In this document: positions 9,821-20,426 of the stretch, piece by piece
Position numbering within the stretch: position 1 is the stretch's first letter
Layout of the letters: each line of letters opens with the position of its first letter
Assembly (NCBI RefSeq): GCF_000969905.1
Contig: NZ_CP009520.1
Coordinates: 3,782,001-3,846,000, forward strand
Reading direction: 5' to 3'
Length of the DNA stretch: 64,000 bases
Source: Methanosarcina vacuolata Z-761
GTDB taxonomy: Archaea > Halobacteriota > Methanosarcinia > Methanosarcinales > Methanosarcinaceae
Notes under the pieces: generated by a model
Seen by the model: only the letters and a program-made list of their open reading frames with translations
Database searches by the model: none
What the model was told of the DNA's origin: nothing
Program-made: the position numbers and the translations under genes

Positions 9821-10243
9821 TCAGATTTTATCGTTTGATGCTACGGTGGTGAGCTTTGAAAACTTTACCCCTTTGAGGGCCATTATAGCTTCGGCAAGCT
9901 CCTTTATCTCTTCACCTTCCCCGTCTAGAACAATCACTTCAAAGCAGTTGTCATGATCAAGGTGTATATGCACCGAAGATTTTATCAGGTGAGAATATTG
10001 GTGCTGAATATCTGCGAGAGCATTTGAGAGCCCCCTTTTTGTATGGTCGTAAATAACCGAAACGGTTCCAACACGGTAACCCTTAATATCACCCATCCAT
10101 TCGTAATAAGAAATATAACTCCTTATGGCATCTCTTATGCCTTCAGAGCGAGAAGAATAACCTCTTTTTTCGATAATCTCATCAAATTTATCTAGAAGGG
10201 TATCAGGAAGGGAAACTCCTATCCTCATAAGTTCTGTTTCCAT
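9821..10243 (-). CDS. nikR: Nickel-responsive regulator NikR
   Basis: This 140-residue protein has an N-terminal ribbon-helix-helix DNA-binding part ([19 protein letters not shown], then [14 protein letters not shown]) and a C-terminal ACT-like metal domain. The nickel ligands keep exactly the spacing of E. coli NikR (H76, H87, H89, C95): here H81, H92, H94 and C100 in HIHLDHDNC. It represses nickel uptake genes when nickel is sufficient. ATG 10243 has GGTGAT close upstream; M6 is an alternative start. No nickel transporter is adjacent in this window, but hypF (55943), needed for nickel hydrogenases, is present. Confidence 0.96.
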
Positions 10244-10729
10244 AATATCACCAAATAATCTTGGACTTGTTTACGAGTTAATACTTTAGTATATTATATG
10301 TAGCACTATATATGTTTTTTTCACATAGCCACTAATATAAAAGAGTTGATAACAAATATTCATTCTTTAATATTAATCTTTGGGAAAGCTCACATCTGCC
10401 ACCAAAAAATATATAGGCTTTTTTATGTTAGAAAAGGAACAATCCAGCCTGGAATTAATTAGAGATTAACGGATTAATATAGGAAGAAATAATATCAAAA
10501 TATGATAAAAGGTAGAAGAAAGTCTTAAAACAACTTATGTTTCAACAGGACTTTAATAAAATTGTATTGAAGATTGCTTTCAGGAATGAGTACATTTTCC
10601 AGGTAAACCATTTTTCCGCCATCAACAGTTTCACATTCTCTGTATCTTTTCATCATTTTCTGTGTCCTTGCTCTCTTCTCCTTGCTCTCTTCTCCTTGCT
10701 CTCTTCTCCTTGCTCTCTTCTTGTTCTCT
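10244..10729. other. nikR upstream region
   Basis: 486 bases with no supported gene. The left part, next to nikR, is AT-rich (10280-10400) and must hold its promoter. I see repeated ACTATATATG-like and TAGTATATTATATG elements near 10283-10313 but no clean NikR operator. The right end holds a pyrimidine-rich repeat at 10667-10722. Confidence 0.4.
10667..10722. repeat. 14-bp tandem repeat, 4 copies
   Basis: Four copies of CTTGCTCTCTTCTC (the last with a final T), in a pyrimidine-rich tract just beyond the stop codon of the F390 synthetase-like gene. It makes a spurious Leu/Ser-rich open frame on the plus strand. Confidence 0.9.
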
Positions 10730-12103
10730 TTATCGCCTGTCCACCAGCCTTTTAGGCCTGCCTTTTATCCTGTTAAGTTCGAGCCCCAGAGGGCCTGTGA
10801 AATTGAATACTATTTTGAAAGTGCCTTCGGCATAAGCCCTGGAAAGTGGAGGTTTATATCTGAGAAAAGTACGAAGAAAGTTCTCTTTTATAAGGTCCCG
10901 GTCGCACATCTCAGGATTTTCACATTCCATACTAACTCTGAGTACGGTTTCTCCCTCGTCTTCTGTGCCATAAAGAAAAGCCTCATATTCTCCGGTTAGA
11001 TAGTCCATGTTTTCGCGCTGAAAAACGCCCCTTTCCACATCTACGCGGTTAAAAGGAGTGCCTTCCACCCACGCGGTTTCAGCCTCCCGCTGAGGAGTCA
11101 GAATTTTCATGTGCGTCCTTCCACAGGGACACTGTTTGCGCGTAAGCACCACAGTCGTGTCTTCTGTATCATAATTTAAAAGAAGGGTTCCTGCTTTTGC
11201 CCCAACCGGCAGCAGCGTGCTCAGGATAACTCTTCCGCACTCTCCGTCAGGTACATAATTCTCGAGATGGGGATCATAAATATCAACATGGACAAGATCT
11301 TCAGGCACATGCAGCCCTGACACCTCATCACACTCGCCGCACATCGTGCCTTCCGTGCTTCCATAGATATTATACACAGGACAACCCCAGATTTCGGAAA
11401 GGTAATTCCTCGACTCGTCAGCAAAGGCTTCTCCTCCCACAACCAGTTTATCTATGCCTGACTCCCGAGGGTCGATGCCCTCTGCCCGTAACCTTCTGGC
11501 AAGGCTCAGGAGCTTGAATACGCTGCCTACTATGCCTGTAGGCCTGTAAGCTTCAATAACACGCAGGGGAAATGTGCACTTGCCCTCAGGAATAATGCTC
11601 ATACCAAGCTGCCTGGCCGCAAGGGTCATGGTGTTTGCTCCTACGTTCATCCCATAAGAAGCACAGACAACAACCCTGTCTCCAGGGCCGAAGCCCTGTG
11701 ACCTGAAAATACGAGCGTATTTTTCCGAATACCGTTCCCAGTCTTCCCATGTAAGGAAAAAACTCTTTGGGTTTCCGCTGGTTCCGCTGGTCTCATGAAC
11801 TGTGAAAACATCCTCCCAGCCCACACTCCTGAACATGAATTCGCTCGTTTCCGGAGGCTGGTTTTCGCGGATTGTATTTCCCGAGATTATTGGAAGGTCC
11901 AGAAGGTCTTCATGGGTTTTGATCTCAGCCGGGTCCACGCCATGCTTTTCAAACCATTTTCTGTAAAAAAGAGAATTTTCTGCCGCATATTTTACCGTGT
12001 ACCGTACCCGCTCCTCTATGAGAGCATCCAGTTCTCCCCTGTCCAGAGTCTCGATTTCAGGGTTGAAATAAGGTTTTGAGTTGTCTATAGAAAGCACCCC
12101 CAA
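10730..12103 (-). CDS. AMP-forming ligase, coenzyme F390 synthetase/PaaK type
   Basis: This 457-residue enzyme belongs to the ANL superfamily in the phenylacetate-CoA ligase branch. The adenylation P-loop is ETSGTSGNPKSF, the A5-like motif is YGSTEGTMCGE, and the C-terminal domain begins after CPCGRTHMKI. In methanogens this family includes coenzyme F390 synthetase, which adenylates F420 as a signal of redox stress; several paralogues exist, so the exact substrate is open. The start is uncertain: TTG 12103 is the first candidate and GTG 12097 the second, with the G-run GGGGGTG lying across both. The upstream region has a 15-bp triple repeat at 12112-12156. Confidence 0.85.
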   Translation of the reverse strand: MGVLSIDNSKPYFNPEIETLDRGELDALIEERVRYTVKYAAENSLFYRKWFEKHGVDPAEIKTHEDLLDLPIISGNTIRENQPPETSEFMFRSVGWEDVFTVHETSGTSGNPKSFFLTWEDWERYSEKYARIFRSQGFGPGDRVVVCASYGMNVGANTMTLAARQLGMSIIPEGKCTFPLRVIEAYRPTGIVGSVFKLLSLARRLRAEGIDPRESGIDKLVVGGEAFADESRNYLSEIWGCPVYNIYGSTEGTMCGECDEVSGLHVPEDLVHVDIYDPHLENYVPDGECGRVILSTLLPVGAKAGTLLLNYDTEDTTVVLTRKQCPCGRTHMKILTPQREAETAWVEGTPFNRVDVERGVFQRENMDYLTGEYEAFLYGTEDEGETVLRVSMECENPEMCDRDLIKENFLRTFLRYKPPLSRAYAEGTFKIVFNFTGPLGLELNRIKGRPKRLVDRR

Positions 12104-12452: not shown

Positions 12453-13223
12453 TCATCTTCTTAAAGGTAAACACACTTTCCTTTTCATATCCTCAATTTC
12501 CCTGACAGCTACATTTACACCATAGACTGAAGACATCATCTTACTTGTTACAACGGTTTCAACCTTTCCTACGGCAACCAGTCTACCTCCAGACAGTGCT
12601 GCAGCCCTGTCACCTAACAGAAAAGCATGGTCTGGCATGTGTGTATTCATTACAATGGACATTCCAAGTGAAGCCAGTTTCTGGACAGTTTCCAGCACAA
12701 GGACCTGGTTTCCAAAATCAAGGTGAGAAGTTGGTTCGTCCAGCAAAAGCAAAGCAGGCTTCTGGACAAGAGCCCTGGCAATAAGCACCATTTGACTCTG
12801 TCCTCCACTGAGGTTAGCAACCGGCCTTTCTGCAAGATCAGAAATTCCCACCATTGCTAGCGATTCTTTTGCAAGTTTAATATCATCTGCACCAGGGGAT
12901 GAGAACATGGAAAGATGAGGGGCACGGCCCATGACTACAAAATCCAGCACAGTAAATGGAAAAACCACTTCATTTTGCTGAGGTACATAACCTATATGCC
13001 TTGCAATTCCCCTTACCCCAAGAGAAGCTGTATTCTCTCCCTGAATAAAGACAGACCCGGCAGCGGGTTTGAGAATTCCTGCAATACATTTGATAAGTGT
13101 AGATTTTCCTGCTCCGTTTGGGCCCAGGATACACATGATCTCGCCTTTTTTTAACGAAAAAGATACATTTTCAAATACTGGCCTTTTTCCATAAGAGAAA
13201 GCAAGGGACTTTACTTCCAGCAT
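12453..13223 (-). CDS. ABC transporter ATP-binding protein, FecE/BtuD type
   Basis: ATPase of a metal-chelate or corrinoid-type importer. Walker A GPNGAGKST is at about residues 34-42, the ABC signature LSGGQSQ near 140, Walker B LLLLDEPTSHLD near 160, and the switch His is in MNTHMPDH. The length (about 257) is normal. ATG 13223 gives a protein beginning MLEVKSLAF and has GGATGG upstream; ATG 13232, three codons earlier, is also possible. Either way the gene overlaps the permease stop codon, so translation is coupled. It is the last gene of the five-gene operon and pairs with the permease at 13223-14242. Confidence 0.93.
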   Translation of the reverse strand: MLEVKSLAFSYGKRPVFENVSFSLKKGEIMCILGPNGAGKSTLIKCIAGILKPAAGSVFIQGENTASLGVRGIARHIGYVPQQNEVVFPFTVLDFVVMGRAPHLSMFSSPGADDIKLAKESLAMVGISDLAERPVANLSGGQSQMVLIARALVQKPALLLLDEPTSHLDFGNQVLVLETVQKLASLGMSIVMNTHMPDHAFLLGDRAAALSGGRLVAVGKVETVVTSKMMSSVYGVNVAVREIEDMKRKVCLPLRR

Positions 13224-14242
13224 CAGTTCCATCCCATACGCCCCTTCTTGATAAGATATGCAAACAGCGGAGCTCCTACAAGAGAAGTGAGGATTCCAAG
13301 GGGAATTTCTGTAGCTACAATAGTCCTTGAAAGGTCATCCACAACCAGCATAAACGATGCTCCAATAACCATGCTCATAGGCAGGAGGCGGCTATAATTG
13401 GGACCGACGATCATTCTTGATATATGGGGCACAACCAGCCCGACCCAGCCAATGACACCGCTGATACTGACTGCTGCTGAAGTTACAAGGGTCGCACAAA
13501 CAATGATGACCAGGCGCATTTTTTCCACGTCCATCCCAAGAGCTTTAGCTTCCTCATCCCCCAGGGACAAAATATTGATGCGCCACCTGAAAAGAAGCAA
13601 GACGAGAGTCCCAATAAATATAGGCAATAATATGTAGAGCAGATCACCGTACCTGACAGTGGCAAGGCTTCCCATAAGCCAGAATACTATTGCAGGAAGT
13701 TGATCATAAGGATCTGCTACATACTTTGCCAGCGACGTAAGCGCCGTGAAAATAGAGCTCACAATAATTCCCGAAAGCACGAATACCAGAGTTCCAGTAC
13801 CTTTGCTGACTTTACCCATACTTATGGCAATAAACATCGCAAGGAGTCCGAAAGCAAAAGCCATCAACTGTATAATCAGATAATTGTTCCAGAGCAATAT
13901 TGCAAGGCATGCTCCAAAACCAGCTCCTGACCCCACTCCCAGGATATAAGGAGACACAAGTGGATTACGAAATATTCCCTGGAAAGAGGCTCCAGCTATG
14001 GAAAGAGCTGCACCTACCAGTAAAGCTGCAAGTATCCTCGGTAACCTTACATTGAACAGTACTGTGTGTTGAGTGGAAACCGAAGCAGGAGTGCCGAAAA
14101 AAAGAGATGAAAAAGCACTAATGCTTTCATCCGCAACTGCCGACAGTGGAGTCTGATATCTTCCGACAAAAAGGGAGATTACGAGTAATGCGATAGGTAA
14201 CAGGTACACCAGAGTAGTGCGATTAAACTTGTAATCAGGCAT
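13223..14242 (-). CDS. FecCD/BtuC-type ABC importer permease
   Basis: This 339-residue integral membrane protein has about ten helices and the conserved family elements RLPRILAALLVGAALSIAGA, FRNPLVSPYILGVGSGAG and GVIGWVGLVVPHISR, the last being the loop that contacts the ATPase. The family imports iron-siderophore, heme or cobalamin across the cytoplasmic membrane together with a binding protein. Its start overlaps the end of the radical SAM gene by eight bases (CATGCCTGA), and its stop overlaps the ATPase start. Substrate is unknown; the partner genes are unusual for an ordinary siderophore or B12 importer. Confidence 0.94.
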   Translation of the reverse strand: MPDYKFNRTTLVYLLPIALLVISLFVGRYQTPLSAVADESISAFSSLFFGTPASVSTQHTVLFNVRLPRILAALLVGAALSIAGASFQGIFRNPLVSPYILGVGSGAGFGACLAILLWNNYLIIQLMAFAFGLLAMFIAISMGKVSKGTGTLVFVLSGIIVSSIFTALTSLAKYVADPYDQLPAIVFWLMGSLATVRYGDLLYILLPIFIGTLVLLLFRWRINILSLGDEEAKALGMDVEKMRLVIIVCATLVTSAAVSISGVIGWVGLVVPHISRMIVGPNYSRLLPMSMVIGASFMLVVDDLSRTIVATEIPLGILTSLVGAPLFAYLIKKGRMGWN

Positions 14243-16007
14243 GAGTATACCTCATAACATGCCTGAGCCAGATACCGGAGGAAGGTCTGTGAAATGACCT
14301 GTTAGGTTTTGCTTCCTCAAAAGGTATACCGTAAAACCGTAGATAAAACTCATCTGCTTCCTTTTTCAGGTCGATTGCTGAGCTTCCTGGGTTCAGTTTG
14401 TCTGCTATGTACATGAGTCCCAGTATCCAGCGAGGGTTTCCGAAATCCCAGGACGGTGGGATTTCATAGACCCGGTGCTCTTTTACCGCATCTGCATATA
14501 TGCCGTATTGCTGGCACAGTCCATAAAACTCATCTATAGGTCGAGAAAGGAAACCTGAAATAAAAATTGTCTCAGGGTTCTGTTCATTTATAAAAGAAGG
14601 AGAAACATTTACCCCGGGTTTGCCTTCTTTTTGAATCTGTTTATTGATACTGACTCCCCCGGAAAATGTCACAAGGTTGTTTTCCATTCTCCCGGCGTTC
14701 AGAGCAAAAAGAGGAGAACCCATACAATAATACACCTTATGACCGCTATTTTCCGCTGCAAGAGATTTGACAAGTTCCAGGCGTTCACGGATAAAAGAAA
14801 TAAGTTCTTCTCCTTTTTCCGACTCATTTGCCTTCTCAGCAACAAGCCTGACAAATTCAAGGTAGGAATATGGTTGTTGTATCATATGATGTATTTGACT
14901 CAGGTTTTCGGGATTGGAGACCTTTACCCAGATTTCGATTACCCTGTGGTCGTCCAGTATTCCCAGGCATGTAAGTACTGCATGGACCATACTGAAAGCC
15001 CGGCTTATCCTGTAACCACCCATGAAGCCCTCTTCGTTGAAGCTTTCAGTTGCAGTTGTCCCTTTAACCGGAGTATTTTTACCACAAGTGCAGGTGTAAT
15101 TTATCCAGGGTTTTAGAGGTTTGGAACCCATGGGCCCGTAAAACTCCCTTTCTGCAAGAAGACTACCGCATTCAGGACAGTACGTGTTTAATGATTCCGT
15201 ACCTGGAGAATTGAAAAGATAGGCATAGTCTACATGCTCCCGCAGAGAGGCACACAGGCTCTCGGCTTCTCCAATAGAGGGTTCAAGCTCAATCGGGGCA
15301 TCCCCAAAAGGAATGAATCTCATTACCTGAACCGGAATGGTGGGGGAGATATTAGACAATGTTTTTGCAACATTTATTACGTCGTCCTCATTTCCCCTTG
15401 AGTATACGACCGAAGTTTCAACATGCACACCCAGGTCGAAAAGCCGGGAAATATTGCGGAAAACAGGTGCAGAGGATGGAACTCCACAGTTTATGTAACT
15501 CTGATCAGAATAGCCTTTAATTCCGATATTCATGAAATCTACAAGCTTTCCAAGCTCCTCAAGTGTCTCATCTGTGAAATAACAGTTAGTAGAACAGCCT
15601 GCAAGTAAACCTTTTTCTTTTGCCTGTAATGCAAGTTCCCTGAAAAGATAATAGTTTGCAGCAGGCTCATTGAGTGTAGAAACTACACCAAGGCATTCCT
15701 GCTGCAATGCCTTTTCCACCACCTGAGACGGGGTAAGCGCAGGAAGGTCAAGCGATTTCCCTGAAGCTAACAGGCGAGCTACGCAGCCTGAACACTGGAA
15801 GTTGCATCCGGTACTGAAAACCTGAAGGAATTTACCTGAGGGATAATAGTGAAGTAAGGGAATGGTTTCTATAGAAACAGGATATGCTCCAAGATATCCT
15901 ATATCAGGGTCTTGGATGATAGTATCACCATCACATACGTAGTTCCCGCACCTTCCCCTGCTCCATTCATCGATTTCACACCTGAATTCACACACATTGC
16001 ACTTCAT
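14235..16007 (-). CDS. Radical SAM protein fused to a periplasmic-binding-protein-like domain
   Basis: Residues 1-25 carry a Cys-rich start (C3, C6, C10, C20, C25) like that of AmmeMemoRadiSam/PflA-type proteins. The SAM [4Fe-4S] motif is C68xxxC72xxC75, followed by STLNEPAANYY (110-120). A ribbon with C277, C280, C306 and C308 follows. Residues about 330-565 look like a substrate-binding-protein lobe: VYYCMG (425-430), GGVSIN, NPETIFISG, DAVKEHRVYEIP (507-518), NPRWILG and EADEFYLRFYG. The same elements occur in the same order in the lipoprotein of this operon. There is no signal peptide, so this domain should be cytosolic. The start ATG has GGAAGG upstream, inside the end of the methyltransferase gene. 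It may modify or strip the imported ligand; this is inference. Confidence 0.88.
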   Translation of the reverse strand: MKCNVCEFRCEIDEWSRGRCGNYVCDGDTIIQDPDIGYLGAYPVSIETIPLLHYYPSGKFLQVFSTGCNFQCSGCVARLLASGKSLDLPALTPSQVVEKALQQECLGVVSTLNEPAANYYLFRELALQAKEKGLLAGCSTNCYFTDETLEELGKLVDFMNIGIKGYSDQSYINCGVPSSAPVFRNISRLFDLGVHVETSVVYSRGNEDDVINVAKTLSNISPTIPVQVMRFIPFGDAPIELEPSIGEAESLCASLREHVDYAYLFNSPGTESLNTYCPECGSLLAEREFYGPMGSKPLKPWINYTCTCGKNTPVKGTTATESFNEEGFMGGYRISRAFSMVHAVLTCLGILDDHRVIEIWVKVSNPENLSQIHHMIQQPYSYLEFVRLVAEKANESEKGEELISFIRERLELVKSLAAENSGHKVYYCMGSPLFALNAGRMENNLVTFSGGVSINKQIQKEGKPGVNVSPSFINEQNPETIFISGFLSRPIDEFYGLCQQYGIYADAVKEHRVYEIPPSWDFGNPRWILGLMYIADKLNPGSSAIDLKKEADEFYLRFYGIPFEEAKPNRSFHRPSSGIWLRHVMRYTHA

Positions 16008-16009
16008 TT

Positions 16010-16633
16010 TTAACCTTCCTTGCTTAATACCATCCAGAACCCAGAGTCATCCTGAACTACATGACAGGGAACCTCTGTCTGCCTTCCAGCTTCCTTTATA
16101 GCCTGAAGGTTTTCAGGACTGAGACGTTCTTTTGAACTTGTATGCCAGTCCGGATCTATTTCGACCATTTTTTCAGAGATCTGTGCTCTCAACTCTTTTG
16201 TGCCGAAGCCACCTCCTACCCATGCCTGACCACCCGGAGCAAGAACGCGAGAGATCTCATTAAAGGCAACAGGCAGGTCATTCCAGAAAAATACGGAACC
16301 ACGGCTTACTATGAGGTCGGCACAATTATTCCTGAAAGGGAGCAGGTGTACATCAGACTGCACAGGAGAAACTTTACCTGAAATGCAATGGCGTAAAGCT
16401 TTGTTTCTTGAAAGCCTGCACATCTCAGTTGAAATATCGACTCCATATACCTGCATATCCGTTATTTCCGCAACAGCAATTCCGAGGGATGCTATACCGC
16501 ATCCCAGGTCAAGGCATATACCTTTCTCTATCCCGCTTTGCTTGACAATATTAGCGGCTATTACAGGGTAGATGGGGGCAAAGATATTCTCTGCGATATA
16601 GGGAAAGCCCGGAGATTTGTCCTTCTCGCTCAC
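16010..16633 (-). CDS. Class I SAM-dependent methyltransferase
   Basis: 207 residues with motif I LDLGCG at 41-46, an acidic loop VYGVDIS, motif DLIVSRGSVFFW and a post-motif RVLAPGG. The fold is the UbiE/COQ5-like class I methyltransferase. It starts with GTG, and that GTG overlaps the TGA of the lipoprotein gene (GTGA), so the two are translationally coupled. It ends two bases before the radical SAM start. Being between a binding protein and a radical SAM enzyme, it probably methylates a small molecule handled by this operon, such as an imported or secreted metal ligand. No substrate residues can be read from sequence. Confidence 0.88.
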   Translation of the reverse strand: MSEKDKSPGFPYIAENIFAPIYPVIAANIVKQSGIEKGICLDLGCGIASLGIAVAEITDMQVYGVDISTEMCRLSRNKALRHCISGKVSPVQSDVHLLPFRNNCADLIVSRGSVFFWNDLPVAFNEISRVLAPGGQAWVGGGFGTKELRAQISEKMVEIDPDWHTSSKERLSPENLQAIKEAGRQTEVPCHVVQDDSGFWMVLSKEG

Positions 16634-17727
16634 GTCTTGGCCTCTGCTGAAGGGTTAAGTAGTGTATCAAGTTCTTTATCTGTTAGATCATAGTGGAAGA
16701 ATTCCGAGTAGAACTCACGGGTCAGTTCGGAGAGGTCCATATCTGTGAAAAGATCAGGATACAGCATTTTTGAAGTCCAGGCAGTTCCGAGAATAAGGTG
16801 AGGACCCTGTGGCCTGTCAATCCAGCAGAAAGGATTCTGAGGAGCAAGGTACACTCTTTTATTTTTCACAGCATCTACACTTGACCAGAGAGAATCAGAG
16901 TAAACTGTCGAATAGAACTGTGGATTTGAAGTGATGATTACCTCAGGGTTCCAGTTCATAACCTGTTCGATTGAAACCTGCGTCATGCCATTCCCTGGCG
17001 TAAGCTGACAGTCTGCAACGTTAATGCCACCGCAGATATCAATGACCTGGGAGTGCTGAGAACCTGAAGGATCGGTCATTAGCCCTTTTGGACCTTCCGC
17101 ATAATAGACACGTACTTTCTGGCCTTCAGGAAGGTCTTTTACAGTGTTATTTATCTCACTAAGGACTGAACTGCGGAAATCAATCAGTTTTTGCGCCTGG
17201 TCTTCACAGTTAAGAAGTTTACCCACATATTGTATGGTAGGATCGGATTTGTTGACGAAGATAATAGAATCATTAACAGCCACTACAGGAATGCTTCCAA
17301 AATTTTCCTGTCTGCGCTCTATAGCCTCATGGATTTCCCCATCAGTGGTGTATCCTTCAATTACAATGTCAGGATGCATGTTGATTATAGTTTCATAGTT
17401 CCCGGTCTGTGTTCCGAACCAGCCCCCTATTACAGGCAGGTTTGAATAGTTTTCAGCCATGAAAGGTTGAGTAAAATTATTTTTGAAGTTCCACCCTGCA
17501 AGTTTGTCCGGAGCAAGCATATACACGAGGATGGTAGACGGCGGAGAAGTGGCTACAACTGAAGAGATTTCCGTTGGCACGGTTAACTGCCTGCCCAACA
17601 TGTCGGTGATCTGTATCGTGCTTGAGTTTTGAACATCCTGCTGATTCGCATTTTCTGCACATCCACAGAATGCAACAGCCAGAACCAGAATAGAGAGTAG
17701 TAGTATTGTACTTATTTTTCCACGCAT
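16630..17727 (-). CDS. ABC transporter substrate-binding lipoprotein, FecB/BtuF-like
   Basis: The N-terminus is a lipoprotein signal: charged MRGK, a hydrophobic run and a Cys box ending in CGC, with lipidation probably at C23. The mature part is a two-lobe metal-chelate binding protein: ITDMLGRQLTVP, VVATSPPSTILVYMLAPDKLAGWNF, then lobe 2 with CGGINVA, NPEVIITS, DAVKNKRVYLAP and REFYSEFFHY. It is the first gene of the minus-strand operon and should capture the ligand outside the membrane. AGGT lies at modest spacing before the ATG. An inverted repeat at 17761-17780 lies in its promoter. Confidence 0.93.
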   Translation of the reverse strand: MRGKISTILLLSILVLAVAFCGCAENANQQDVQNSSTIQITDMLGRQLTVPTEISSVVATSPPSTILVYMLAPDKLAGWNFKNNFTQPFMAENYSNLPVIGGWFGTQTGNYETIINMHPDIVIEGYTTDGEIHEAIERRQENFGSIPVVAVNDSIIFVNKSDPTIQYVGKLLNCEDQAQKLIDFRSSVLSEINNTVKDLPEGQKVRVYYAEGPKGLMTDPSGSQHSQVIDICGGINVADCQLTPGNGMTQVSIEQVMNWNPEVIITSNPQFYSTVYSDSLWSSVDAVKNKRVYLAPQNPFCWIDRPQGPHLILGTAWTSKMLYPDLFTDMDLSELTREFYSEFFHYDLTDKELDTLLNPSAEAKT

Positions 17728-17760: not shown

Positions 17761-17780
17761 TTATGTTTGCATGAACATAA
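17761..17780 (-). promoter_or_regulatory. Operator-like inverted repeat before the ABC/radical SAM operon
   Basis: TTATGTT and AACATAA form 7-bp perfect arms around TGCATG. The element begins 33 bases upstream of the lipoprotein start codon. On the minus strand it lies just downstream of an AT-rich stretch (ATATATATTTATAA), so it probably overlaps the transcription start, as a repressor operator would. Confidence 0.5.
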
Positions 17781-18420: not shown

Positions 18421-18972
18421 ATGAGTAATTTGATGGTGAATAGAGTTAAACGCAGGGTATCGTGCCTTCCAAAAGCCACATATTATAAACCCAGGAAGGC
18501 TTCTCTCTGCGATCTCGAAATTATTAACTTATCCATAGGAGAGCTTGAAGCTATCCGCCTTTGCGATCTCATTCACGTTGATCAGAACGAGGCCGCAGAT
18601 ATGATGGGTATCTCCAGAAAAACCTTCTGGAATGATCTGCAAAAGGCCCGACAGAAAGTGACTGATGCCCTTGTAAATGGAAAAGCAATAGAGATCTCCG
18701 GAGGAGAGTATATAAATAAAGGGGAGTGTAAAGTCGAATTCCTCTGCAGCGGGTGTGAGTATAGATGGGAATTACAGTGCAATACTGAGCGCCCAGCTAG
18801 CTGTCCAAAATGCGGCTCCGAAATCGTTTATCAAGTAGGCGGCAACGGAAGAGGAAATAATTTCATTGAGAACGATTACTGCTGCTCCAAAAGCAAGGGG
18901 AAAACAGCAGCGTTAAACGTTAAAGCAGGAAGTGTGAAAAGTGACAAAAATTGCTATACCATCGATGAATGA
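18421..18972 (+). CDS. DUF134 (UPF0251) HTH protein with C-terminal zinc ribbon
   Basis: The N-terminal part contains the DUF134 core: VSCLPKATYYKPR, then a sigma-like helix-turn-helix EAADMMGISRKTFWNDLQKAR. A ribbon follows with two CxxC pairs, CSGC and CPKC, and the tail is poorly conserved. DUF134 proteins are putative transcription regulators usually found beside NifX/NifB-type proteins, as here. ATG 18421 is the first start; ATG 18433 is equally good by family and would suit a leaderless transcript. The 3' end overlaps the NifX-like gene by 32 bases, which ties the two together. Confidence 0.85.
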   Translation: MSNLMVNRVKRRVSCLPKATYYKPRKASLCDLEIINLSIGELEAIRLCDLIHVDQNEAADMMGISRKTFWNDLQKARQKVTDALVNGKAIEISGGEYINKGECKVEFLCSGCEYRWELQCNTERPASCPKCGSEIVYQVGGNGRGNNFIENDYCCSKSKGKTAALNVKAGSVKSDKNCYTIDE

Positions 18973-19315
18973 CAGTGGATTGGAATCTGACGTTTGTTAT
19001 CATTATGGTTCATGTGAATATTTTACTATCGTGGATGTAAAAGAGAAAGATATTGAAAGTGTTAAAACAATAAGTAACCTGTCTCCTGAGATCGAGCATA
19101 ATTGCGCTGCTCCGTCAAAAATTTTGGAATCAAATAATGTTAATGCTGTGCTCGTCGCGGGTATTGGCGGAAGGCCGTTAATGTCACTGGCGGAAAAGAA
19201 CATCAAAGTATTTGCAGGAATAACGGGTAAGGTTTCCAATGCAGTTGAAGACTATAATAATGGATTGTTGCAAGAAATATCTATGAACGGCACCTGTAAT
19301 TGTTCTCATCACTAA
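18941..19315 (+). CDS. Dinitrogenase iron-molybdenum cofactor biosynthesis (NifX/NifB C-terminal-like) protein
   Basis: 124 residues with the NifX-like fold: MTKIAIPSMND, the ligand region HYGSCEYFTIVD, AVLVAGIGGRPLMSL, and a C-terminal CNCSHH that may hold metal. The family binds iron-sulfur or FeMo-type clusters; stand-alone archaeal members often act outside nitrogen fixation. It starts with GTG 18941 (AGGAAG eight bases before), inside the end of the DUF134 gene. No nif structural gene is in the window, so a general cluster-carrier or sensor role is more likely than nitrogenase assembly. Confidence 0.85.
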   Translation: MTKIAIPSMNDSGLESDVCYHYGSCEYFTIVDVKEKDIESVKTISNLSPEIEHNCAAPSKILESNNVNAVLVAGIGGRPLMSLAEKNIKVFAGITGKVSNAVEDYNNGLLQEISMNGTCNCSHH

Positions 19316-19377
19316 ACTACTTAATTAACAATGCTTGAATTGGGGCTTGAATCAGAGCTATCTAAAGAGGTGAAACC

Positions 19378-19695
19378 GTAAGCCGACAAGAAACCAATTA
19401 CTTAATTGACCTTATTCTGACAACTTTATTTTTTATTGTTGCAGGTACAGGTTTAGTTATGTATTTTTTAATACCTTCAGGAATTCCAAGAGGACAATAT
19501 ATAGTATATATGGGATTAACGAAAGCTACCTGGATTTGGATACACAGCAAAGCAGGGATCTTGATAGTTATTCTTATAGTTGTCCATCTTATCCTGCATG
19601 GTCAATGGATTCTATGTACCACAAAGAGATTTTTCAGAATAGGAAAGAAAAACGCTGTTTGTGAGACTAATACAGTGACTGATAAAGTCCGATAA
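19378..19695 (+). CDS. DUF4405-like small membrane protein, start codon unclear
   Basis: The frame is open from 19366 and reads SRQETNYLIDLILTTLFFIVAGTGLVMYFLIPSG, then WIWIHSKAGILIVILIVVHLILHGQWI. That is a two-helix DUF4405-type membrane protein with His residues able to bind heme. The first ATG, at 19459, would delete most of helix 1. AAGAGGTG at 19365-19372 points to a start near GTA 19378, which is not a normal start; GTG 19370 would be in frame only if one base were added before GTA. The gene is therefore either mis-assembled, mutated, or begins at an unusual codon. The tail is hydrophilic. Confidence 0.6.
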   Translation, partial: VSRQETNYLIDLILTTLFFIVAGTGLVMYFLIPSGIPRGQYIVYMGLTKATWIWIHSKAGILIVILIVVHLILHGQWILCTTKRFFRIGKKNAVCETNTVTDKVR

Positions 19696-19736
19696 GAAAA
19701 TTTTTCAAAGAGAATTTAAAAGTCGGAGTTGAGAGA

Positions 19737-20426
19737 ATGGATATTAAAGAAATAAACAGATACGGGCAAGAACTTGTAGACTGTCTGAAACTGAAAACGT
19801 CTCCTGTTGCAGTAAAGCTGATCCCAAAAGGAGGAGAAGTTCCCGAAGGAATGAAAGAAGTAGATGAGACTATGAGGCACTGCCAGCTGGTTGATAGGGT
19901 TAGAAGAACAGGTGAAGAGTTCTACACCCTTGGGGAAGACCAGATGTGCAAAGGCGGAGCCGGTGCAATGGGCCTTGGCGAAATGCCCCCAAAAGTCGCA
20001 AGTGGAGAATTTTATTTTAATAAACTCAAACAGTTCAGCACCCAGGGCGCTGCAAGGCGTACCCTTGAAAGAGTTCCAAAGCTTCCCCCAAACTCAACAG
20101 AAGCTATCCTGTATTCTCCTCTGGAAAAAGCAACGTTTATCCCTGATGTTGTTGTGGTTATCGGTTATCCTAAACAAATAATGTTACTTACACAGGCTGC
20201 AATGTATAAAGCAGGCGGCAGGGTCGAAGCAAGTTTTGCAGGAAAGCAGAGCCTGTGCTCAGACGGGGTTGTGAATGTATACAAAGAAGGCAAAATTGGA
20301 GTCACAGTCGGTTGCAGCGGCAGCAGGACATACACCAAAATCGCAGACGAAGAAATGATTATGGGAATTCCCATCGAACTTCTGGCTGATGTAGCCGCTG
20401 GCCTCAAAGAAATTTGTCCGAAGTAA
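19737..20426 (+). CDS. DUF169 family protein
   Basis: 229 residues with typical DUF169 features: an N-terminal LKLKTSPVAVKLIPKG, a Cys in MRHCQLV, DQMCKGGAGAMGL, and near the end CSDGVVNVY and GCSGSRTYTKI. Conserved cysteines suggest binding of a metal or a cluster, but the function of the family is not established. ATG 19737 follows GGAGTTGAGAGA. It is the last gene of the plus-strand group that starts with DUF134; DUF169, NifX-like and DUF134 together suggest a metal or redox-cofactor theme. Confidence 0.85.
   Translation: MDIKEINRYGQELVDCLKLKTSPVAVKLIPKGGEVPEGMKEVDETMRHCQLVDRVRRTGEEFYTLGEDQMCKGGAGAMGLGEMPPKVASGEFYFNKLKQFSTQGAARRTLERVPKLPPNSTEAILYSPLEKATFIPDVVVVIGYPKQIMLLTQAAMYKAGGRVEASFAGKQSLCSDGVVNVYKEGKIGVTVGCSGSRTYTKIADEEMIMGIPIELLADVAAGLKEICPK

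Follow-up and report, generated by a model that had tools for sequence, protein, structure and literature searches.

A radical SAM protein joined to a class III substrate-binding-protein lobe in Methanosarcina vacuolata and its probable link to molybdenum

The first step of CO2-based methanogenesis depends on molybdenum and tungsten, and Mo nitrogenase on molybdenum; in sulfidic settings, either metal can be in short supply. A precedent for enzymes that act on an imported metal ligand is given by ChuW and HutW, anaerobic haem-opening radical SAM enzymes that are encoded with a class III importer. The archaeal ModE element probably goes back to work by Studholme and Pau in 2003. ModE governs modABC and the nitrogenases in Methanosarcinales (PMC9765008), and the class III binding protein MolA binds molybdate and tungstate (PMC4031551).

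In the window, the whole 64,000-nt stretch of Methanosarcina vacuolata Z-761 analysed here (NZ_CP009520.1, positions 3,782,001 to 3,846,000), an operon of five genes is encoded on the minus strand, with the start and stop codons of adjoining genes overlapping or abutting. It comprises a MolA-like substrate-binding lipoprotein (SBP, 16630..17727; PF01497, 82.9 bits), a SAM-dependent methyltransferase (MT, 16010..16633; Methyltransf_11, E 4e-19), a radical SAM/substrate-binding-lobe fusion of 590 aa (FUS, 14235..16007), a FecCD-type permease (13223..14242; PF01032, E 1e-90) and an ABC ATPase (12453..13232; PF00005, E 2e-35). The FUS reading frame runs from 16007 to 14235, and the plus strand is not open at these coordinates. 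A profile search of SBP against the PDB identified MolA HI_1472 (E 9e-50), which we take to be its best PDB relative with a known ligand. As the first-pass annotation had proposed, a signal peptide is present in the lipoprotein, with the lipobox MRGKISTILLLSILVLAVAFCGC, and absent from FUS, whose N-terminus is MKCNVCEF; the family members shown all start with a Cys knuckle. Divergent from the operon, positions 18421-20426 encode a DUF134 HTH protein, a Nitro_FeMo-Co protein (PF02579) and a DUF169 protein. On the other side, NikR and coenzyme F390 synthetase (9821-12103) lie downstream of the operon in some Methanosarcina; we discarded them as members of the system because they follow it in only some of these genomes.

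FUS begins with an N-terminal Cys knuckle (C3-C6-C10-C20; residues 1-36, 15900..16007, minus strand as for all segments of the protein), followed by a radical SAM barrel (residues ~34-265, 15213..15906) with the motif C68xxxC72xxC75, and a zinc-ribbon-like segment with C277-C280-C306-C308 (residues ~273-312, 15072..15191). The radical SAM domain matches PF04055 (residues 64-215, 47.7 bits). In the predicted full-length model (pTM 0.75), which gave two separate structure matches, residues 34-264 resemble the pyruvate-formate-lyase activase 3c8f (Z 18.4, 217 aa). Motif and predicted barrel fold thus place FUS in the radical SAM superfamily, as a predicted enzyme with a fold of the pyruvate-formate-lyase-activase type. 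The nearest radical SAM model is TIGR04337 (AmmeMemoRadiSam), which FUS matches over residues 1-291 with 81.7 bits, well below the curated cut-off of 220 bits; the true AmmeMemo-type enzyme of the same genome is a separate protein that scores 380.9 bits. The extra Cys clusters pointed out at first pass are real insofar as C3/C6/C10/C20 and C277/C280/C306/C308, like the CxxxCxxC cysteines, are kept in at least 95% of 37 FUS family members, but C25, which had been counted with them, is not conserved. Nor are they unusual, as had been thought, because the genome's own AmmeMemo-type radical SAM enzyme has corresponding sets.

The remainder of the protein is a class III substrate-binding-protein domain (residues ~331-567). 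Residues 331-420 (14748..15017) form a helical segment in the place of lobe 1 plus the inter-lobe helix, and residues 421-567 (14307..14747) form lobe 2, with the loops YYCMGSPLFALN-R-EN, GG-S-N, FISGFLSRP and WDFGxPRW. By BLASTP, residues ~380-565 are 26% identical to SBP (17727 to 16630) over 187 aa (E 1e-8), and an hhalign profile-profile comparison of both proteins, spanning the inter-lobe helix and lobe 2, gave 99.1% probability (E 9e-19). The Pfam profile Peripla_BP_2 (PF01497) aligned with residues 380-518 (E 1e-5), in the region for which the first pass had proposed this comparison, with 25.5 bits, just short of the gathering score of 27.5. A profile of the domain matched PDB entries 4hn9 (E 6e-14), 4pag (E 2e-12) and MolA/HI_1472 (E 2e-8). 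The predicted model of the C-terminal part (pTM 0.79) resembled class III binding proteins in Foldseek (E 4e-9) and aligned to 4hn9 by VIA-align with Z 19.6 (217 residues, 2.7 A), as did residues 338-564 of the full-length model (Z 19.9). The structural match on which the first-pass annotation had staked its claim is therefore present, and the resemblance to binding proteins, as judged from profiles and predicted models, is far beyond chance. In the predicted models, nothing is missing from lobe 2 or from the inter-lobe helix. In residues 331-420, both models have helices only and no strands, and lobe 1 is therefore reduced; neither model contains two full lobes around a cleft. These results bear out the proposal of a binding-protein lobe, homologous to that of the neighbouring lipoprotein, on a predicted cytosolic radical SAM enzyme, with lobe 2 of the class III fold.

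In a contig search that covered close relatives, full-length fusions came from Methanosarcinaceae, from a single Methanothrix-like genome (G202) and from five more families of the same phylum (f9, f13, f17, f27 and f28). MCR alpha is present in 27 of the 30 carriers, indicating that these are methanogens or their close kin. Matches to FUS were obtained in 38 of 100 Methanosarcinaceae, some of them through ordinary binding proteins only, and many methanogens lack FUS, which is therefore accessory. In family f9, two FUS genes of different clades stand tail to tail (L107 8690-12142; L153 8157-11749). In a tree of 93 lobes, the 39 fusion lobes formed a single clade (100/100) apart from 54 lobes of secreted binding proteins. 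This argues for one old fusion and rules out that the lobe was copied locally from the neighbouring lipoprotein in recent times; of the kinship with this neighbour noted at first pass, nothing beyond that of the superfamily is supported.

The comparison of ligand pockets proposed by the first-pass annotation gave a divided answer. The scaffold residues VYY, GG, P478, AV, W, P and FY are common to FUS and the partner lipoproteins, but each clade has its own set of conserved residues in the pocket loops: M429, P432, F434, R440, E442, N455, D521-F-G and P525-R-W in the fusions, and E211, T218-D, S223, H225, N236 and D304-R-P in the lipoproteins. A shared pocket, and with it a shared ligand, is thus not supported. 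Within the main FUS clade, R440, E442, W520-D-F-G and P525-R-W are invariant, and three of the four loop segments have a conservation of 0.72-0.82, versus 0.62 for the whole lobe and 0.63 for the radical SAM domain. That conservation in most loops exceeds that in the remainder of the lobe argues that the lobe is functional, without implying the same ligand as for SBP.

The gene order SBP-MT-FUS-FecCD permease-ATPase is kept across Methanosarcinaceae and in the Methanothrix-like genome. No other gene accompanies FUS as constantly as MT, which adjoins it in most loci, including those in which the transporter is missing or different; no AMMECR1 or Memo gene was present beside FUS among the seven genes scanned. 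A distinct methyltransferase of ~290 aa is encoded repeatedly near FUS genes in other methanogen families (L099, L106, L111, L112, L113, L114, L148, L153, L154 and L158). The genome of the window and five other Methanosarcina contain a second FUS copy, ~70% identical to that of the window, situated upstream of vnfH and divergent from it (L016 5651-7765, L038 12838-14631, L040, L041, L064 and L065), with operator-like sites (0-1 mismatch) between the two genes. In the window's genome, this copy is preceded by the tail of a methyltransferase gene and therefore probably derives from the five-gene operon.

The operator in question is the palindrome TATGTT-N6-AACATA, which is conspicuous when the upstream regions of the Methanosarcina operons are aligned. 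It is situated at 17762..17779 in the window, 34 bp before the start of SBP, and is a putative ModE-type site. Of the 26 operons examined, 24 have it, with at most one mismatch, in the 125 bp upstream, at 33-36 bp in most; it was not found at the Methanothrix-like FUS copy or in the 12 loci scanned from other families. Genome-wide, four Methanosarcina have 4-16 sites per genome, versus 0-1 for a reversed-pattern control. In the window's genome (G000), about 10 of 16 sites share one sequence; TATGTTTCTGCCAACATA repeats about 10 times there (e.g., at C2:254961 and C2:477373), and these repeated operator-like sites are probably copies of a mobile element. The operator also precedes fmdE-FACDB, for the Mo formylmethanofuran dehydrogenase, as well as a second lipoprotein of the same kind adjoining fmd, and occurs between modBC and fmdE, between the second FUS copy and vnfH, and in the anf/vnf region, containing V/Fe-nitrogenase genes; a few sites are at unrelated genes. 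A ModE homologue was detected in all six Methanosarcinaceae genomes tested (62-66 bits, E about 1e-17, below the TIGR00637 family cut-off of 98.5 bits) and in none of four FUS carriers outside this family. No known riboswitch was detected at Rfam gathering thresholds. Since it shares its operator with known molybdenum genes, in genomes that contain a homologue of the regulator, the FUS operon is a putative member of the ModE regulon; ModE would be its regulator, and the operator is presumably the same element as that of Studholme and Pau. Beside a Mo/W formylmethanofuran dehydrogenase operon there are also genes for a peptide/nickel-type ABC importer and yet another methyltransferase (L137 3469-7720, L139 1888-7465 and L144 4896-7431; NikA/CntA-like where scanned), which suggests a recurrent association of methyltransferases with metal importers in the operator regulon.

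Molybdenum genes accompany FUS in some loci of other families as well. In G338 (L098 5378-10752), MT and FUS come after modA-modB-modC in the same orientation; FUS is near modA in L113, and moeA, fmd or mod genes lie near it in L099, L110 and L114. Overall, modA occurs within 12 kb of FUS in 5 of 34 loci versus 0.7 expected (P 0.001, related genomes not being independent), and most FUS loci outside Methanosarcinaceae have no visible molybdenum gene. The first-pass annotation had put forward no function; regulation and neighbourhood together make it very probable that the FUS system is linked to molybdenum. Because the MT-FUS pair also occurs beside plain modABC or without a nearby transporter, an organic chelate need not be imported everywhere.

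We propose that FUS works in the cytosol as a radical SAM enzyme and has its substrate holder built in, in the form of a class III lobe from which most of lobe 1 would have disappeared. Together with the neighbouring MT, it would constitute an accessory pathway for molybdenum or tungsten acquisition, switched on when molybdenum is scarce and, in Methanosarcinaceae, under ModE-type control. The MolA-like SBP, the FecCD permease and the ATPase of the window operon would import a ligand containing molybdenum or tungsten; inside the cell, the FUS lobe would bind this ligand or its organic part and hand it over to the [4Fe-4S]/SAM centre; a radical reaction, along with methylation by MT, would then convert it so that the metal enters cofactor synthesis. 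The substrate bound by the lobe may be related to molybdenum or tungsten. For the lobe itself, we lean towards a ligand-presenting role. Processing of an imported Mo/W ligand by FUS and MT, as opposed to cofactor modification or chelator synthesis, is the explanation that we prefer, and its probability comes close to an even chance without reaching it.

Among the alternatives, the one that survives best, although we consider it unlikely, is that FUS and MT modify or load a Mo/W pterin cofactor or else one of the Mo/W enzymes (formylmethanofuran dehydrogenase, for example), with the lobe binding the pterin or the metallated cofactor. This would fit the loci in which pairs of moeA or fmd/fwd genes lie near FUS, namely L099 (two moeA with fmdA/fmdDB), L114 (two moeA with modBC) and L110 (modA with fmdE and fmdB), as well as the occurrence of the MT-FUS pair without a transporter of its own. 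Against it, many relatives lack FUS although CO2-pathway methanogens require formylmethanofuran dehydrogenase, and FUS shares its operon with a transporter in Methanosarcinaceae. Somewhat less probable still is that FUS and MT are a biosynthetic pair whose product, an organic Mo/W chelator, would be exported, loaded and re-imported through SBP, the FecCD permease and the ATPase, the lobe binding the finished product. A radical SAM enzyme and a methyltransferase do adjoin a class III importer, chelates are the usual cargo of such importers, and second methyltransferases recur in these loci; however, the FUS loci contain no evident exporter, synthetase or peptide precursor, the modABC-linked copy lies beside an oxyanion importer, and the loops of the FUS lobe are unlike those of SBP.

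We regard as improbable that the system handles another metal chelate or a tetrapyrrole (of iron, nickel, cobalt or vanadium), with molybdenum control being secondary. Class III relatives bind siderophores, haem, cobalamin and Ni-His, NikR and F390 synthetase are downstream in the window, the second FUS copy is beside vnfH, and the haem-opening ChuW, working beside a haem importer, offers an analogy; nevertheless, the operator also precedes Mo-fmd and mod genes, MolA is the nearest relative of SBP with a known ligand in the PDB list, and the order modABC-MT-FUS points to molybdenum. That the lobe is a relic that binds no ligand and now serves in dimerisation, in docking to the transporter or in regulating the radical SAM domain would agree with the all-helical lobe 1 and the missing two-lobe cleft, but the heightened conservation of three of the four loops and the residues fixed in the main clade make this equally improbable.

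Returning to the processing of an imported ligand, it is possible, if rather doubtful, that methanogens scavenge molybdenum and tungsten by an undescribed route, with an organic Mo/W ligand sitting in a captured lobe as the substrate of a radical SAM enzyme and a methyltransferase; as tentatively, the processing of siderophores or haem would then have its molybdenum equivalent, with an enzyme that has an importer lobe built in. If so, these archaea would process Mo/W ligands chemically, beyond the import of oxyanions alone. FUS offers a single-protein handle on the ligand, as the lobe could be expressed alone and the bound molecule identified. The parts are each of a known kind, and their combination, a captured importer lobe with molybdenum-type control, is absent from the literature searched: no paper joining radical SAM, Peripla_BP_2 and fusion was found, and none naming AmmeMemoRadiSam or TrsS looked relevant by title and abstract.

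Compared with described systems, FUS has in common with AmmeMemoRadiSam (TIGR04337) the N-terminal Cys knuckle and the C-terminal Cys ribbon, but it scores far below that family's cut-off, has a binding-protein domain of ~250 aa and lacks AMMECR1 or Memo in its operon. Like class III binding proteins (Peripla_BP_2, MolA HI_1472), it has the lobe 2 fold and the inter-lobe helix in its predicted models; unlike them, it is predicted to be intracellular and fused to an enzyme, with helices for lobe 1, instead of being secreted or lipid-anchored. The window operon contains the components of the MolABC importer of Haemophilus, a FecCD/BtuC-type permease, an ATPase and a MolA-like SBP, to which it adds a methyltransferase and the radical SAM fusion, and would carry a ligand containing molybdenum or tungsten. 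With the ModE regulon of Methanosarcinales it shares the operator that precedes the fmd, mod and vnf/anf genes and the presence of a ModE homologue, although we did not find it described as a member in the literature searched. Finally, ChuW and HutW, like FUS, are radical SAM enzymes encoded with a class III importer, but they belong to another radical SAM subfamily and are without a binding-protein lobe.
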